NCBI RefSeq assembly: GCF_000403355.2
Contig: NZ_KE159646.1
Coordinates: 700,424-764,423, forward strand
DNA length: 64,000 bases
Reading direction: 5' to 3'
Source of the DNA: Adlercreutzia caecimuris B7
GTDB lineage: Bacteria; Actinomycetota; Coriobacteriia; Coriobacteriales; Eggerthellaceae
Below are positions 6,046 through 48,465 of the stretch, piece by piece. A model generated the notes under the pieces. The model did no database searches, had not been told where the DNA came from, and saw only the letters and a list, made by a program, of their open reading frames with translations. Within the stretch, counting starts at the first letter, position 1. Each line of letters starts with the position of its first letter. Both the position numbers and the translations under genes were made by a program.

Positions 6046-8724
6046 CTAGTCCTCGTCGTTGGCCTCGAAGGCCTTCAACGTCTCGAGTTCCATCTGATCT
6101 ACCAGCACTTCGCGGGGACGGCTTCCGTTGGCCGGGCCCACGATGCCCTTTTCTTCCAGTTGATCCATTATACGCCCGGCGCGGGCGTATCCGACCTTCA
6201 AGCGGCGTTGAAGGTTGGATGTTGAGCCCAAATCGCTTGAAACCACCACATCGGCAGCTTCCCACAGAAGCGGATCATCGGCCTCGGAGCCCCCATCGCC
6301 GGCCGGCGAGGAGTCGCCGAGGGTGACCACGTTGGTCTTCAAGATCTCGGAGTGGTACTCCGGCTCGCCCTGGCCCTTCAGGTGCGCCACCACGGCGGCG
6401 ATTTCCTCGTCGGGAATCCAGGGGCCCTGCACGCGCACGGGTTTGGGATACTCCGGCTTGGAGATGAGCAGATCCCCTCGGCCGATGAGGTTCTCGGCGC
6501 CGGTGGAGTCCAGGATGACGCGGGAATCGATGCCAGAGGCCACGGTGAGGCCGATGCGGCAGGTGATGTTCGCCTTGATGAGGCCCGTGACCACGTTGGT
6601 GGAGGGGCGCTGGGTGGCGATGATGAGGTGGATGCCCGCTGCGCGCGCCAGCTGGGCGATGCGGCTGATGGAGAACTCCACCTCCTTGCCGACGTTCATC
6701 ATGAGGTCGGCAAGCTCGTCGATGACGATGACGATATAGGGAATGGGCTCGCCGTAGGGGTTCTCGGGAGCCTCCCCGCCGCTCGCCTCGGCCGCATCGG
6801 CGGCGGTCTGGGCGGCCCTCGCCTTCTCGTTGAAGGAGATGATGTTGCGCACGCCGCACTTCGAGAACATCTTCAGGCGGCGCTCCATCTCGGCTACGGC
6901 CCAGGACAGCGCGCTCGATGCCTCGCGGCACTCGGTGACCACGGGCACGTAGAGGTGCGGAATGCCGTCGTAGGGGGCGAACTCCACCCGCTTGGGGTCG
7001 ATCATGATGAAGCGCACTTCAGCGGGGGTGGCGCGCAGGAGAATGGACATGATCATGGCGTTCACTTCCACCGACTTGCCCGAGCCGGTGGTGCCGGCGA
7101 TGAGCACATGGGGCATCTTCGCCAGATCGTGCACGATGGCGTGGCCCTCCACGTCCTCGCCGATGGCCACCTGCAGGGGCCCCTCCCCCGCGGCGGCCAG
7201 AACCTCGGGCAGGTACACTGTCTGCCGCTCACGGTTGGGTACCTCGATGCCCACGTAGTTGGTGCCGGGGATAGGTGCGAAGATGCGCACGCCGGGGGCG
7301 GCGAGCGCGAGCGCGATGTCATCGGTGAGGTTGGTCACCTTGCTCACGCGCACACCGGAGGGAAGATCGACCTTGAACAGGGTCACCGTAGGACCCTCCA
7401 CCCAGCCGACGACGCTGGCGAACACCCCGAAGTCCTCGAGCGTGCCCTGAAGCTCGGCAGCCACCGAGCGCAACTGCTCTTCGGTGGAGCCGCGACGGCG
7501 CCCGTCGCCGGTAGCGAGCAGGTCGATGGAGGGCAGTTGGAAACCGTCGCGCGAGGGGGCGGGCTCGGCGGCCTTGGGCGACGGCTTCGCCTTCGGTTTC
7601 GCGGCCTTCTTGCGGGGATTTGCCGTCTGGGCCTTGGCAGCCGCCTCGACAGCTTCCGCTTCGGCCGCCTTCTTTCCGAGCTTGCGGGTCATGGGCCGGG
7701 CCGGAGCCGTTGCGGAGATGTCCTCGGGTGCCTCCGCCGCAACGGCGGCGAGGTTCACCGTGCGGCCGGCGGCTACGGCCGCAGGATCGACGCCGAGCTG
7801 GCGGGTCACTGCCGCTGCGGCAGGTGCGGCGGGCTCCGCCGCAGCCGGTCCGGCTGCGGCGTCCGCGCCTCCTATCGCCACGGTGCGCGCACCCGACACG
7901 GGGCGACTGCGGCGGCGGGGCTGCTCCTCCATGGACAGGCGCGCCGTAAGGGCCGCCGGCCGCACGACGGTCGCATCGGGCGGCTGGGGCACCTCGTCGG
8001 AGGTGCGTCCCAGGCCGTGGCGCACGACATGGCCGCCGCGCTTCACGGCGCCGAAGAGCGCCTCGGGCAAGTAAGGCGCCTGGGCGGCCAGGTCGGCCTC
8101 ATGGCGCTCGCGCACCTTCTCGATGAAGGCCGAGACCGAAAAGCCGATGACAATGACGCCACCCAGGGCCACGCCCAGAAGCAGAATGGCCGAGATGATG
8201 CTGCCGAACAGGGTGAGGCCCACCCAGGCGAGCGCCGCGCCCACATAGCCTCCGTGGGTCGTGAGCGCATCGTAGTCGAACAGGTGCTCGGGCCCGGTGT
8301 TGCCGAGGGGCGTGAACAGCGCGATGATGCCGAGCAGCGCCACCAAGATGAGCGCAAGGCCCACGGTGATGCGCAGCGACATGCGCTCGCTCTCCTTGCG
8401 GTAGAGCACGGTCGCGCCTACGGCCACGAGGAAGAACGGCATGATGTAGCAGCCCACCCCGAACACGAGGTGGAGCGATTCGGACAGAAACGAGGTGACG
8501 ATGGCGCCGGTAGGGGCCACCGCTGCGATGAACAGCACGATGCCGACGAGGATGAAGCCCACTCCCACCATGTCGCGACGGGTGCGGTCATCCAGAATGC
8601 GGGGCTCGGGCTCGACAGCGCGGCTACGCGCCGCCGACAGGGGACGGCGCGTACCGCTCTTCGAGACCGCTCCGCTCGCGTTTTTCGATGAAGATGCGTT
8701 TTTTGCTTGCGAGTGTCGGGCCAC
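6046..8724 (-). CDS. ftsK: DNA translocase FtsK/SpoIIIE
   Basis: This septum-located hexameric ATPase pumps chromosomal DNA during division. The order is: short basic N-terminus, four membrane spans between about residues 52 and 200, an Ala/Pro/Lys-rich linker (about 240-395), then the alpha/beta motor with Walker A GTTGSGKS at 544-551 and the conserved IPYIVIVIDELADLMM Walker B strand. The end is a gamma winged-helix domain (LLWEAADVVVSSDLGSTSNL, RIMDQLEEKGIVGPANGSRP) that reads KOPS-type sequences. At 892 residues it is typical for actinobacterial FtsK. It starts seven bases after RNase J. Confidence 0.97.
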   Translation of the reverse strand: MARHSQAKNASSSKNASGAVSKSGTRRPLSAARSRAVEPEPRILDDRTRRDMVGVGFILVGIVLFIAAVAPTGAIVTSFLSESLHLVFGVGCYIMPFFLVAVGATVLYRKESERMSLRITVGLALILVALLGIIALFTPLGNTGPEHLFDYDALTTHGGYVGAALAWVGLTLFGSIISAILLLGVALGGVIVIGFSVSAFIEKVRERHEADLAAQAPYLPEALFGAVKRGGHVVRHGLGRTSDEVPQPPDATVVRPAALTARLSMEEQPRRRSRPVSGARTVAIGGADAAAGPAAAEPAAPAAAAVTRQLGVDPAAVAAGRTVNLAAVAAEAPEDISATAPARPMTRKLGKKAAEAEAVEAAAKAQTANPRKKAAKPKAKPSPKAAEPAPSRDGFQLPSIDLLATGDGRRRGSTEEQLRSVAAELQGTLEDFGVFASVVGWVEGPTVTLFKVDLPSGVRVSKVTNLTDDIALALAAPGVRIFAPIPGTNYVGIEVPNRERQTVYLPEVLAAAGEGPLQVAIGEDVEGHAIVHDLAKMPHVLIAGTTGSGKSVEVNAMIMSILLRATPAEVRFIMIDPKRVEFAPYDGIPHLYVPVVTECREASSALSWAVAEMERRLKMFSKCGVRNIISFNEKARAAQTAADAAEASGGEAPENPYGEPIPYIVIVIDELADLMMNVGKEVEFSISRIAQLARAAGIHLIIATQRPSTNVVTGLIKANITCRIGLTVASGIDSRVILDSTGAENLIGRGDLLISKPEYPKPVRVQGPWIPDEEIAAVVAHLKGQGEPEYHSEILKTNVVTLGDSSPAGDGGSEADDPLLWEAADVVVSSDLGSTSNLQRRLKVGYARAGRIMDQLEEKGIVGPANGSRPREVLVDQMELETLKAFEANDED

Positions 8725-33130: not shown

Positions 33131-33232
33131 GGAGCTCCTTGTGCCAACCGCGCGCCATTGATTGTCGTTCGGCTCACAGTGTAGCGGATGTACAATCGGG
33201 CCGAGCAAAATCCAAGAGAAGAGGAGAGATTC

Positions 33233-33880
33233 GTGAAGGTACTGCTTATCAACGGAAGCCCGCGCATGGCGGGAAACACGGCCCGGGCCCTGCAGGAGGC
33301 CGCGGCGGCCCTTGAGGCCGAGGGCGTGGAGGCGGAGGTCGCCTGGATCGGCAACAAGGAGATCCGCGGCTGCATCGCCTGTGGCATCTGCGGGAAGAAG
33401 GGCGATCACCGTTGCGTGTTCGACGCCGACCCCTGTAACGAGCTCATTCAGAAAGCCGCTGAGGCCGACGGCCTCATCGTGGGCTCGCCGGTGTACTACG
33501 CCGGGGCGGCCGGCTCGCTCATCGCGCTGCTCGACCGGATGTTCTATGCCGGCGGCTCCCTGCTGCGCTTCAAGCCGGCGGCCGGCGTGGCCGTGGCCCG
33601 GCGTGCCGGGGCTATAGAGGCGGCCGACCAGATCAACAAGTACTTCCAGATCAATTCCATGCCTGTGGTGGGTTCCAGCTACTGGAACATCATCTTCGGC
33701 CGCACACCGGGCGATGTGGAGGGCGACGGCGAGGGGCTGCACACCATGCGCACCCTCGGCCGCAACATGGCCTGGCTGATGCGGTGCATCGAAGCGGGTC
33801 GCGCGGCCGGCATCGAGGCCCCGGAGATCGAGCCCAAGCCCTTCACCAATTTCGTGCGCGAGGATCTGCTGGAAGCGTAG
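33233..33880 (+). CDS. Flavodoxin-family NAD(P)H-dependent FMN/iron-sulfur oxidoreductase
   Basis: The start is a GTG at 33233, giving VKVLLINGSPRMAGNTARAL, with GAGGAG six bases upstream; the frame is open 15 codons further but without a ribosome site. The first strand and the SP-R-x-G-NT loop bind FMN phosphate; GSPVYYAGAAG is the second flavin loop. CIACGICGKKGDHRC supplies four cysteines, the compact motif typical of iron-sulfur flavoproteins of strict anaerobes. With 215 residues it fits that family. Substrate unknown. It is divergent from the small membrane protein and dus. Confidence 0.87.
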   Translation: MKVLLINGSPRMAGNTARALQEAAAALEAEGVEAEVAWIGNKEIRGCIACGICGKKGDHRCVFDADPCNELIQKAAEADGLIVGSPVYYAGAAGSLIALLDRMFYAGGSLLRFKPAAGVAVARRAGAIEAADQINKYFQINSMPVVGSSYWNIIFGRTPGDVEGDGEGLHTMRTLGRNMAWLMRCIEAGRAAGIEAPEIEPKPFTNFVREDLLEA

Positions 33881-34479
33881 ACGTCCGTCGGTCGTCTATG
33901 TCACAAGGGGCCTGACGTCGAACGCCAGGGCACTCGCCGTTCCCCACAATTGCCGCGATAGCGATGCGCTCGCATCTCGTCCGTTGGCGTCAAGCCGCAC
34001 CCTCAACGTTGGCTGGCGCTAACGGGCATTCGCCACAACGTCGGCCATCGGCGTTCATCTACCGCAGCGGCTATGGCCGCCGCTCATCGCCGTCTCCGCC
34101 CATCGCCGAGCCGCTGGCGGCGATGGGCGATTGCGGACTGCCCCCACTGCGCACAAGCCGACCCGTGCCCTGCGTGGGAGTTAGACAAATCGGCCTTTTA
34201 TGCATCGCTGCGCATTATGGGCCGATATGTGCAGTTTGGGCGCTCCAAACCTATACAAATCGGCTGCTTTCGCGCACTTATGCGCCGAGAGCTATGCATA
34301 TCGGGCTTTTCGGTGCATCGATGCAGGAAGAGGGTCGATATGCATAGATGTGATACGGCCCGAGGCGCCCTCAGGCATCGACATGCAAGTTATGCCACAA
34401 TTTGGACATTCTCTCCGGCAGCAATTAGCGCCCCTTTTCGCGGCAAAAGACGTTCATCCTGTCAACGTATCGACAGCTG
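33881..34479. other. Non-coding region with structured palindromes
   Basis: No plausible gene is seen on either strand in these 599 bases. They hold a perfect 11-bp hairpin, GCCCATCGCCG (34098-34108) with CGGCGATGGGC (34118-34128), then the paired palindromes at 34185-34346 (separate entry), then plain A/T-richer sequence up to the stop codon of the BspA-like gene. There is no recognisable terminator directly after that stop. Confidence 0.7.
34185..34346. repeat. Paired palindromic repeats, left island edge
   Basis: Unit A: ACAAATCGGCC (34185-34195) with GGCCGATATGT (34220-34230), one mismatch, around an ATGC...GCAT core. Unit B: TATGCATATCG (34293-34303) with CGATATGCATA (34336-34346), perfect, around the perfect palindrome TGCATCGATGCA (34314-34325). 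Between them GTTTGG and CCAAAC (about 34233-34249) form a small linker hairpin. The layout matches the pair at 46296-46467. Confidence 0.8.
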
Positions 34480-36267
34480 CTATTTCTTTGTCTTCACCGC
34501 CTTGGCCTTCGACCAGCTGGAGTAGTAGGTTTTGCCGCCCACCTTCTTGTAAGTGCGCACTTGGACGTAGTAGGTCTTCTTGGCCTTCAGCTTGGAGACC
34601 TTGAGCGAGCACTTCCTGCCGGCGGCTGAGGTTGCCTTGGCGATCTTCACCTTGGTGGTCTTCTTCGTGAACTTCTTGCTGGTGGACCAACGCACCTGGT
34701 AGCCGGTCGTCTGCTTCAAATTCGCCTTGCTCGGCTTCTTCCATTTCACGGTGAAGGCCCTCTTGGCCTTCGTGAGCTTGGAGACGCTTGTCCCCGTCGG
34801 CACGATCCTGAACGTGGCGGTCTTGGCGCCCGCGTACTTCCCCGCGCCCTTAACGGTCACCTTGTAGGAGCCGATCTTCTTACCGGCCTTGCAGCTGTAG
34901 GTGAAGTCCACCTTGTGGCGCAGCGTCTTGCCGCCCACCTTCACCGTGGGCACCGCGCACTTCTGCGTCTTGCCGTTGTAGACTTTGGACTTCACGCTGA
35001 TGGAGGCCTTGGCGATGGAAATCTTAGACGGCTTGGGGGTTGGCGATACCGTGGGCGGTGCCGGCTTCGGCTTCACCAATGCGCTTGCGGCCGCTGATCC
35101 TTCGGCGGCGTAGGTTGCCGCCCTGTTCGCGGGAACTTGAGCGGGGGCAAACACATCGCCGGCCTCATTCACCCACTTACCCGTGGCATTTGGAATGTAC
35201 CTTGCATTTGGCGTGGGCATTTCCGAACCTAAGTTTGTACGAGAGCCCAAGGTGATCAGGGAGAGCTGGGGGCACTGTGCCAAAATCCCACTAAGACCGT
35301 CATGTTGCATTGCCTTTGAGGTGTCCCATCCCGACAGGTTGAGCGTCTCCAAAGCAGAACAACCGTGGAACAGCGAGCTCAGATCTGTCGCACGGGCCAT
35401 AGAAAGCGTCGAGAGATCCAGCACCTTCAGCTTTGAACACTCCATAAACAATGCCGAAGCATTTTCAAGATTTGCCGCACGCCACCCCTTGCCGGTGAAT
35501 ATCGTCAGGGAAGAACACTGGCCGAACATCTCCCACGCTTTGGTTAGCTTTGGCGTATCCCACTTTGAAAGGTTCAATGCTTTCAGGGAGCGACATTCCT
35601 TGAACATCAATAGGCTTTTCTCAAGATTGCTCATATTCCATGAGGAGACATCGAGAGCCGCAAGGGACGTGCAACCGTTGAACATCGATTGGGTTGTCTT
35701 TACGCGCACCGTATTCCAACGCGACACATCAAGGGCCTCAAGCGACGAGCAGTTCCGGAACATCGTTGCCATGCTCTCAACCTTCGACGTGTCCCACCCC
35801 GACACATCGACGCTCTTAAGCGATTTGCATTGGGCGAACATGGAGGTCATATCCGTCACATTGCTCACGTCGAGTTTAGCCAGATTTATTTCAGTGCAGC
35901 TCGTCATATCTTCGAACCAAGAGAAAGTGTCCGATGGCTTGATGGCGTCACGCACTATTACTTTTGTCACCCGAGAATCGACGTCAGACGGCCATCCGCG
36001 TCGTTTTGCGCCGCTCGCTCCCTCAATCGCTGCGGTCACTTTGCCGCCTTGTTTGGCGTCATGCTCTCCATACCTAGTGTCAGTGCCAGGGGTTTCCTCT
36101 GACTGCAAAACGAGGGTATAGCTCTCTCCATTTTTGTAATAAAGGGCATAGATATCGCGCGCATCCCCGCCGTCTGCCCAAGCGGTGTGCGCGGAAAAAC
36201 TGCTCAGAGCCAACAGTACACCACAGCAAATTGCCAGCAGTGCGGATTTAACCATTCGCGTAACCAC
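34480..36267 (-). CDS. BspA-like leucine-rich surface protein with Fn3-type C-terminal cassette
   Basis: The GTG at 36267 has AAGGAGG seven bases upstream. A signal peptide (hydrophobic about 6-26, cleavage near HTAWA-DG) is followed by BspA/DUF285-type repeats from about residue 100 to 340, each with the MF-x2-C-x-SL...LDVS-x-WDTS pattern, e.g. MFAQCKSLKSVDVSGWDTSK. A Pro linker (about 400-415) leads to the shared C-terminal cassette: an MBG/Ig-like domain (VYNGKTQKCAVPTVKVGGKT) and a lysine-rich Fn3-like domain ending WSKAKAVKTKK. There is no sortase motif. BspA proteins mediate adhesion. It is the last gene of the PBP-WG-polymerase-BspA run. Confidence 0.85.
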   Translation of the reverse strand: MVTRMVKSALLAICCGVLLALSSFSAHTAWADGGDARDIYALYYKNGESYTLVLQSEETPGTDTRYGEHDAKQGGKVTAAIEGASGAKRRGWPSDVDSRVTKVIVRDAIKPSDTFSWFEDMTSCTEINLAKLDVSNVTDMTSMFAQCKSLKSVDVSGWDTSKVESMATMFRNCSSLEALDVSRWNTVRVKTTQSMFNGCTSLAALDVSSWNMSNLEKSLLMFKECRSLKALNLSKWDTPKLTKAWEMFGQCSSLTIFTGKGWRAANLENASALFMECSKLKVLDLSTLSMARATDLSSLFHGCSALETLNLSGWDTSKAMQHDGLSGILAQCPQLSLITLGSRTNLGSEMPTPNARYIPNATGKWVNEAGDVFAPAQVPANRAATYAAEGSAAASALVKPKPAPPTVSPTPKPSKISIAKASISVKSKVYNGKTQKCAVPTVKVGGKTLRHKVDFTYSCKAGKKIGSYKVTVKGAGKYAGAKTATFRIVPTGTSVSKLTKAKRAFTVKWKKPSKANLKQTTGYQVRWSTSKKFTKKTTKVKIAKATSAAGRKCSLKVSKLKAKKTYYVQVRTYKKVGGKTYYSSWSKAKAVKTKK

Positions 36268-44762: not shown

Positions 44763-45884
44763 CTATTTCCTCGTCTTCACCGCCTTGGCCCTCGACCAGC
44801 TGGAGTAGTAGGTTTTGCCGCCCACCTTCTTGTAGGTACGCACCTGCACGTAGTAGGTCTTCTTGGCCTTCAGCTTGGAGACCTTGAGCGTGCACTTCTT
44901 GCCGGCGGCCGAGGTCGCCTTGACGGTCTTCACCTTGGTGGCCTTCTTCGTGAACTTCTTGCTGGTGGACCAGCGCACCTGGTAGCCGGTCGTCTGCTTC
45001 AGGTGCGCCTTGCTCGGCTTCTTCCACTTCACGGTGAAGGCCCTCTTGGCCTTGGAGAGCTTCTTCACGCTCGTCCCCTTCGGCACGATCTTGAACGTCG
45101 CGGTCTTCGTGCCGGCGTAGGCGCCCTTGCCGGTGACCGTCACCTTGTAGGAGCCCACGGCCCTCCCGCCCTTGCAGGACCAGGCGTAGTCCACGCCGCT
45201 GCGCAGCGTCTTGCCGCCAAGCTTCACGGTGGGCGCCGCGGGCTTCAGCGTCTTGCCCGTCCACGCCTTCGCCTTCACGGAGACGGAAGCCTTGGCGAGG
45301 GAGGTTTTTGGCACTTCAGGCCGAGCAACAACGCCTATGGGCCCTCGATAACTTGAATTGACAACAATTGTAAGTCGCTTCGGCAGTTTATGCCCCCACA
45401 AGCTACTAATGCCCGCCTGCGTATCTCCAACTATCGAATCGAATATTTCAGCCGAACCATCTTGATATTCAACTAAATACACTAAGCGCCCCTCCGCATC
45501 CCCACTCAGGGCATCAACGAAAACATTTACGCGCCATCCACTTTTATATTGAGGAGCGCTCAATTCGAATGTGCAGTAAAAAAGATCAGTGGCAGTCCGA
45601 GGAAGCAGCGAGACTGCCGGACTCACTGAAGTAAGAGTAATTGGATGCCACAGGGTACCGTAATCGTACATGCCCGTTCCGCCATCAGTAAAGTAACCGA
45701 CAGCAATTTCCCACGGAGCGCCTTTGGAATCAATGATCTTCGTTGCTGTGCCATCCCAAATAGCACCACCTCCGCCTCCGTCCCCATTTGCCCCGCCATC
45801 GGCCAGTGCAATGGACGGCATCATCGAGCAGCAAAGAAGCAACGCTAGAAAACAAACCGGAACTTTCCTAAGCTGATTCTTCAC
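44763..45884 (-). CDS. Secreted protein with Fn3-type C-terminal cassette
   Basis: GTG 45884 has AGGAGG five bases upstream. A signal peptide (about 8-28) ends near SIALA-DG. A Gly-rich stretch is followed by a unique domain of about 155 residues (TKIIDSKGAPWEIAVGYFTD...) without recognisable family, then the shared cassette: MBG-like (VKAKAWTGKTLKPAAPTVKL) and lysine-rich Fn3-like domain ending WSRAKAVKTRK. The unique part is A/T-rich while the cassette (44763 to about 45300) is G/C-rich and nearly identical in DNA to that of the BspA-like gene, a sharp composition break. It has no wall-sorting motif. It is upstream of the regulator operon in the same orientation. Confidence 0.8.
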   Translation of the reverse strand: MKNQLRKVPVCFLALLLCCSMMPSIALADGGANGDGGGGGAIWDGTATKIIDSKGAPWEIAVGYFTDGGTGMYDYGTLWHPITLTSVSPAVSLLPRTATDLFYCTFELSAPQYKSGWRVNVFVDALSGDAEGRLVYLVEYQDGSAEIFDSIVGDTQAGISSLWGHKLPKRLTIVVNSSYRGPIGVVARPEVPKTSLAKASVSVKAKAWTGKTLKPAAPTVKLGGKTLRSGVDYAWSCKGGRAVGSYKVTVTGKGAYAGTKTATFKIVPKGTSVKKLSKAKRAFTVKWKKPSKAHLKQTTGYQVRWSTSKKFTKKATKVKTVKATSAAGKKCTLKVSKLKAKKTYYVQVRTYKKVGGKTYYSSWSRAKAVKTRK

Positions 45885-46088: not shown

Positions 46089-46295
46089 ATTGAGAGTGTA
46101 TCACATGTTGATGCTTTCGCGGAGCATTTAGCGAGCTTGGCCAGTGTTGCCAGTCAGGCCGGCTCCTGACAGCCGTCAGCCGGGTTGGGCCCGGCCCGCA
46201 TTTGTCGCGCGAAGCGATACCCGCTTCGCATCCCTGCCCCAGACCAAAAACCAACTTGCATCCCTATGCAAACCGCCCCCCATCTTGCATCGGGG

Positions 46296-46467
46296 CCGCA
46301 CAAATCGGCCCTCAACTTGCAGCGGTGCATGTTGTGGGGCGATTTGTGCGGGTTGGTTGCTTCAAACCCGGTCAGATGACCTGTTTTTGCGCATCGGAGG
46401 GGTGAAAACCCGCGCAGATCGGCCTTCTGGATGCATTGATGCAAATTGGAGGCCGATCTGCGCGGGT
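46296..46467. repeat. Paired palindromic repeats, right island edge
   Basis: Unit C: CCGCACAAATCG (46296-46307) with CGATTTGTGCGG (46340-46351), perfect 12 bp, with a TTGCA...TGCA core. Unit D: ACCCGCGCAGATCGGCC (46408-46424) with GGCCGATCTGCGCGGGT (46451-46467), perfect 17 bp, with a TGCAT-TG-ATGCA core. A GGGTT/AAACCC hairpin links them. The core and the ATCGG/CCGAT arm ends match units A and B at 34.2-34.3 kb. Confidence 0.88.
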
Positions 46468-46659
46468 CCCCTGCAAGTTGAGGGGCGATCTGGACTTTTC
46501 GGCGCAAGCTGGGCCGCAATCTGGGCTCTGCTCCGCAAATCCGATCCCGCTCGCGCCTCCGATATGCCCTCGGTCGCTATCCGCGTCCAGCCGAGATACG
46601 GGCAGACGCTCGATGCGGGGCCCCATACGGGCGCACGACTCGGGTCGCAGCGCGCCCTT

Positions 46660-48465
<1,806 letters not shown>

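Follow-up and report, generated by a model that had tools for sequence, protein, structure and literature searches.

REP-type repeats usually go together with RAYT transposases, and their copy number usually exceeds 100 per genome. The REP/BIME elements of enterobacteria are intergenic palindromes that lie downstream of genes, occur in pairs and in some tandem arrays, and serve as targets of IS3-family insertion sequences. REPINs, or REP doublets (Bertels and Rainey 2011, PMC3116915), are units of ~100–170 bp with two inverted palindromic ends, a constant spacer, compensatory changes and a species-specific sequence. The CGTC-tagged REPs (Di Nocera 2013, PMC3733652; Actinobacteria are not named in the main text) are REP-like repeats without a dedicated transposase. 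Finally, IS1397, ISKpn1 and ISPsy8 are IS3-family elements that target REPs (PMC1525189).

The paired palindromes described here come from a 2.96-Mb genome of the Eggerthellaceae (Enterorhabdus/Adlercreutzia group; G000), and, apart from the RAYT link, the CGTC tag and the copy number, the traits just listed recur in them. Their layout, their placement and their targeting by an insertion sequence (IS) are REP/REPIN-like, so that the likeness to BIME-type paired REPs proposed in a first-pass annotation of this DNA holds, and the distance between the two inverted palindromic ends, by which REPINs are recognized, is constant. Unlike REP/BIME, they are built of 56-bp dyads whose half-sites are bipartite, plus one additional phased half-site, and they number ~16 rather than hundreds; unlike REPINs, each end is a complete dyad and a third half-site lies in the spacer. 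The GTAG and CGTC tags of REP families were not found in the dyad alignment, which also sets the repeat apart from the CGTC-tagged REPs, and a RAYT gene was not found in the genome. Copy numbers of 16 in G000 and at least 29 in G003, a relative with a sister family, are far below those of typical REP families. Because tag, RAYT and copy number all differ, the repeat is classed as a REP/REPIN variant rather than placed in any of the named REP families. In a literature search, such repeats were not described for Eggerthella, Adlercreutzia or Coriobacteria.

Layout and copies of the repeat

The window, the whole stretch of 64,000 nucleotides that was analysed (G000:C1:700424-764423 of the source genome G000; loci below are G000:C1 positions), holds two copies, W1 and W2 (Table 1). 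The two adjacent dyads reported in the first-pass annotation at 46296-46467 of the window are present in W1, with perfect arms of 12 bp and ~17–18 bp and a TGCA..TGCA centre, and the second pair of the same layout was recovered as W2. One copy consists of dyad A, then a lone half-site (M) and then dyad B, which together form a unit of ~170 bp. A dyad is made of two inverted 28-bp half-sites, CTGTGCAAATCG-N10-TGCATC, and the core letters CA-N-ATC ... TGC ... GAT-N-TG are almost invariant across the dyad alignment. In W1 the core of half-site M is itself a short palindrome, GGTCAGATGACC. Linker hairpins (GGGTT/AAACCC and GTTTGG/CCAAAC), formerly regarded as a separate part, are no such part, since they result from M being inverted with respect to dyad A's right half.

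Table 1. Repeat features and neighbouring genes, in window positions (CM, covariance model)
Feature	Position	Strand	Evidence or remark
FMN reductase gene, convergent towards W2	33188..33880	+	FMN_red 9e-31
Dyad A of W2, 2 bp shorter than usual	34181..34234	+	CM 57.4 bits
Half-site M of W2	34251..34278	+	17 bp from dyad A and 41 bp from dyad B
Dyad B of W2	34292..34347	+	CM 67.1 bits
DUF285/fn3 surface protein gene, convergent towards W2	34480..36267	-	domain match
fn3 surface protein gene, flanks W1	44763..45884	-	domain match
Possible decayed half-sites left of W1 (CAACTTGCATCCCTATGCAAACCG...CATCTTGCATCGG)	46251..46295	.	by eye, low confidence
Dyad A of W1, two inverted 28-bp half-sites	46296..46351	+	CM 69.7 bits; 12-bp perfect arms
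Half-site M of W1	46368..46395	+	17 bp from dyad A and 42 bp from dyad B
Dyad B of W1	46410..46465	+	CM 73.3 bits; palindrome reaches 46408-46467
Possible decayed right half-sites, right of W1 (TGCAAGTTGAGGGGCGATCTGG...CGCAAGCTGGGCCGCAATCTGG)	46468..46520	.	inverted-repeat pair, low confidence
LepA gene; W1 downstream of its 3' end	46660..48465	-	LepA_C 4e-51

The starts of dyads A and B are mostly 113–114 bp apart (range 111–124). When copies are oriented by M, the distance from dyad to M takes only two values, 17 or 27 bp, in the 12 copies measured, and that from M to the other dyad is 41–42 or 31–32 bp, with 52 bp in e608 (locus 608397). The two distances add up to 58–59 bp in 11 of the 12 copies and to 69 bp in e608. 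The two positions of M are one helical turn apart while overall length stays constant, and the distances of 32, 42 and 52 bp from M to dyad B correspond to 3.05, 4.0 and 4.95 helical turns. If 43 offsets are equally possible, the chance of finding M no more than one base away from 17 or 27 in all 12 copies is ~5e-11, a rough figure that assumes a uniform null and positions picked after seeing the data. Reading the three IS-split copies by eye after leaving out the IS gives M distances of 27/32, 27/32 and 17/42 bp.

A covariance model built from 15 units out of eight loci was run on the G000 genome and brought out further copies. The family has 16 detectable loci: 568771, 608397, 734600 (W2), 746715 (W1), 859850, 898643, 902458, 1028030, 1733651, 1768728, 2131859, 2173690, 2612228, 2728044, 2780227 and 2820385. 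Seven of them lie outside the training set and match with E values from 3e-13 to 1e-6. Three loci are split by an IS, namely 902458, 1733651 and 859850, the last counted through its IS and an adjoining array, without a strong match to the model. This tandem array (861207-861390) comprises five left half-sites (CCTGTGCATATCGGCGCTTTTCGCGCAGCC..., period 38–39 bp) and is BIME-2-like. Near 898595-898650, a short tandem repeat of ATGCAGCAACACC in about four copies abuts element e898 (898643). The copies are only moderately alike (~62–71% mean column identity), which gives no indication that they moved very recently. Against dinucleotide shuffles, the folds of W1 and W2 stand out strongly (z -8.55 and -4.44).

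Position relative to genes is consistent, and the genes themselves are diverse. In G000, 12 of 13 copies are placed between genes that run in tandem or converge, and most copies lie downstream of genes; the one exceptional copy rests on a low-scoring open reading frame, gene calls being those of a simple composition-based caller. The neighbours are unrelated and include LepA, surface proteins, FMN reductase, a branched-chain amino-acid transporter, SecA, cytochrome bd subunit II (cydB), a LuxR regulator and AckA/Pta (ackA/pta), among others. A regulon was rejected on this ground. The apparent flanking of a surface-protein island by the two pairs is coincidental, copies being found also beside secA, cydB, ackA/pta and others.

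Insertion sequences, a sister family and relatives

A 1287-bp IS3-family element (NF033516, 310 bits) is present in five near-full copies in G000. Three of them (901120, 1733700 and 859873) are located inside the repeats, in the linker near a dyad, with readable 3-bp duplications GTT at 1733700 and CTA at 859873. The repeats make up ~0.1% of the genome, so that three of five insertions inside them is far above chance. A fourth copy, at 137854, lies within a different though related palindrome (GGCTTGAAAAGCACGGTTT / AACCGTGCTTTCTTGAAG). In the copy at 1694449, one end is displaced by ~1 kb (fragment at 1696781). The likeness to IS1397, ISKpn1 and ISPsy8 is that of an IS3-family IS sitting inside palindromic repeats; unlike in those cases, the IS is a different one, the genus is actinobacterial, two related palindrome families are involved and the insertions occupy the linker beside a dyad.

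In G001 a related IS interrupts a third, likewise related palindrome, with the duplication AAC, and an uninterrupted relative of this palindrome occurs in G008. Following it led to a second family with species-specific ends, an element of fixed 95-bp length (AATCCGTGCAAATGCACGG...GAAACGTACAAAGC...GCGTRCATTTGCACGGATT) with at least 29 copies in G003 (a lower bound, with 30 candidates scored), three variants in G002 and one each in G008 and G006; it was not found in the other 129 searched genomes of the Eggerthellaceae. All 23 classifiable G003 copies lie between tandem or convergent genes. The half-site cores of the 95-bp element are 31 and 42 bp apart, against 32 and 42 bp in the 170-bp family. 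When the 170-bp model (R1) was run on 88 kb of congener DNA around the 95-bp elements, 22 of 22 matches fell on these elements, and with the 95-bp model (R2) on 113 kb of G000, six of six fell on 170-bp elements or their array. The stretches were picked for holding elements, which account for only a few per cent of their bases; the mutual recognition supports common descent or a common reader.

Inverted ends, a fixed length in G003 and the presence of more than one half-site at each end, a trait of some transposons, are also what would be expected of MITEs of a DDE transposon, with dyads A and B as terminal inverted repeats and a parent that is lost or confined to unsampled strains. This origin is unlikely, as target-site duplications are absent at any boundary setting in 25–30 copies of the 95-bp family, and the model run on G000 found no long element bounded by such dyads: all its dyads there belong to element pairs or to decayed or IS-split pairs.

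Among 60 relatives, the covariance model matched only a single locus in G002 and, weakly, one in G005. When joined flanks were searched for in eight congeners, orthologous gaps without the element came to light for e1768 (in G004 and G005), e568 (G005 and G002), e2131 (G001 and G004) and e2173 (G003 and G004). These gaps are otherwise diverged, and no clean insertion boundary or exact junction was readable in the eight congeners because their intergenic gaps have diverged too far; absence of the element could result partly from loss. Contig G002:C45 is 98.5% identical to G000 over 8 kb, whereas other loci are 77–91% identical, and judged by sequence it may be mis-binned or recently transferred; the G002 copy of e2728 (2728044) is for this reason treated as weak evidence. 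In the one comparable element pair, 5 of 170 sites differ, none of the changes being compensatory; the flanking genes differ at ~1%. Further afield, the dyad pattern matched in a named genome collection only an Enterorhabdus contig and, in a single Chloroflexi MAG, two contigs; a plasmid collection gave no match, and the pattern was not found in viral contigs. The two contigs of this MAG, VGOB01, share a repeat that contains the match (6391-6441 and 7184-7234) and looks like a separate, apparently unrelated palindromic repeat.

These comparisons bear on the idea that the repeats are maintained binding arrays of a chromosomal DNA-binding protein (nucleoid, gyrase-type or segregation), in which five phased half-sites would form one complex and be kept because they are functional. 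The near-integral helical spacing between M and dyad B and the nearly invariant core letters (CA-ATC..TGC..GAT-TG) favour this idea, which is nevertheless rather doubtful: congeners carry the same gaps without the element, the families are species-limited, and the elements of the comparable pair differ more than the flanking genes with no change that compensates.

Covariation of a fold or likeness of a half-site

Covariation between copies, taken in the first-pass annotation as an argument that the fold is kept, is indeed above chance. Across 23 units, 86.5% of cells pair and both sides have changed in 40 cells, against 17.9 ± 3.7 in shuffles; the covariation score is 0.293, against 0.171, and 0 of 500 shuffles reach it. 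The step from covariation to a kept fold is weaker. Variable arm letters are also common to M, itself without a partner (0.656 versus 0.530, p 0.0002), and to dyads A and B (0.574 versus 0.474, p 0.005), and the complementarity of the inner spacers is marginal (0.442 versus 0.384, p 0.03), all p-values being indicative only because the units are phylogenetically non-independent. Since arm letters recur in the unpaired M and between the dyads, the covariation reflects half-site likeness within one element and does not prove a kept RNA fold. The one-turn jump of M at constant total length likewise points to DNA. Collectively, the sequence pattern would seem a better fit to repeated copies of one DNA half-site than to an RNA structure. 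Such likeness can be explained by selection on binding sites, by duplication or conversion within the element, or by hairpin-templated repair.

A role as RNA, through hairpins at transcript 3' ends that terminate transcription or protect mRNA, is to be weighed against these data. It would agree with the very stable hairpins on both strands, the location of copies downstream of genes, the covariation itself, a slight excess of G-U over A-C (74 versus 51) and the CTTTTT that follows the first dyad of the 95-bp family. In the 170-bp family, however, only 5 of 50 tails have at least five T in 10, the copies in G000 seem to have no uniform orientation with respect to tandem genes, the arm letters are found in the unpaired M too, and Rfam gave 0 matches at gathering score (weak mir-1253 and CC3664 matches are far below cutoff), in line with the earlier statement that no known family was recognized. 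The RNA role is thus held to be very unlikely. Intrinsic terminators were rejected, given the T-run in 5 of 50 tails and a pattern scan not above shuffles. Three outcomes had been named at the outset as counting against the proposed repeat (no further copies, covariation at chance level, a match to a known terminator family); instead, further copies exist, covariation exceeds chance and no terminator family matched.

Mobility and a candidate mechanism

The absence of a REP transposase, noted before for the window, extends to the whole genome. With positive controls, a search for PF01797, the family of Y1 transposases, RAYTs included, gave no match in G000 or in G003 (85% complete). Such Y1 genes are found in G001 (six) and G002 (one), neither genome being rich in elements.

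With moderate confidence, the pairs can be regarded as REP/REPIN-like non-autonomous intergenic elements that are read as DNA by a protein and have species-specific half-sites. This reading is supported by the 16 copies, the two offsets of M, the congener gaps without the element, the sister family and its cross-recognition, and also by the tandem or convergent placement, the unrelated neighbours, the IS insertions and the BIME-like array. It is weakened by the lack of a mobiliser in the searches, the lack of a clean boundary or of a strain-level empty site, the moderate likeness of copies, the low copy number and possible loss. In the proposed mechanism, a protein would recognize the bipartite 28-bp half-site YTRTGCANATCG-N10-TGCATC; a pair of these placed head to head would make one dyad, and two dyads with one extra phased half-site the ~170-bp unit. 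This unit presumably moves, spreading into gaps downstream of genes and then decaying in place. The IS3-family insertion sequence lands in the elements. The protein may read the unit as DNA, perhaps in the form of single-stranded hairpins while replication proceeds, and the mobiliser may be an enzyme since lost or one of another kind. A more specific version, put forward tentatively, is that the Eggerthellaceae harbour a RAYT-independent class of mobile palindromic repeats. A recombinase or DNA-binding protein would here read five helically phased bipartite half-sites, half-site and reader co-evolving in each species.

The IS3-family element, which lands in both families, would act as an independent reader of the same signal, and the one-turn phasing of M predicts that protein would assemble as a complex along a single face of the helix. 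Two related species-specific families, with no RAYT found, make a case for a second route by which short palindromes may multiply.
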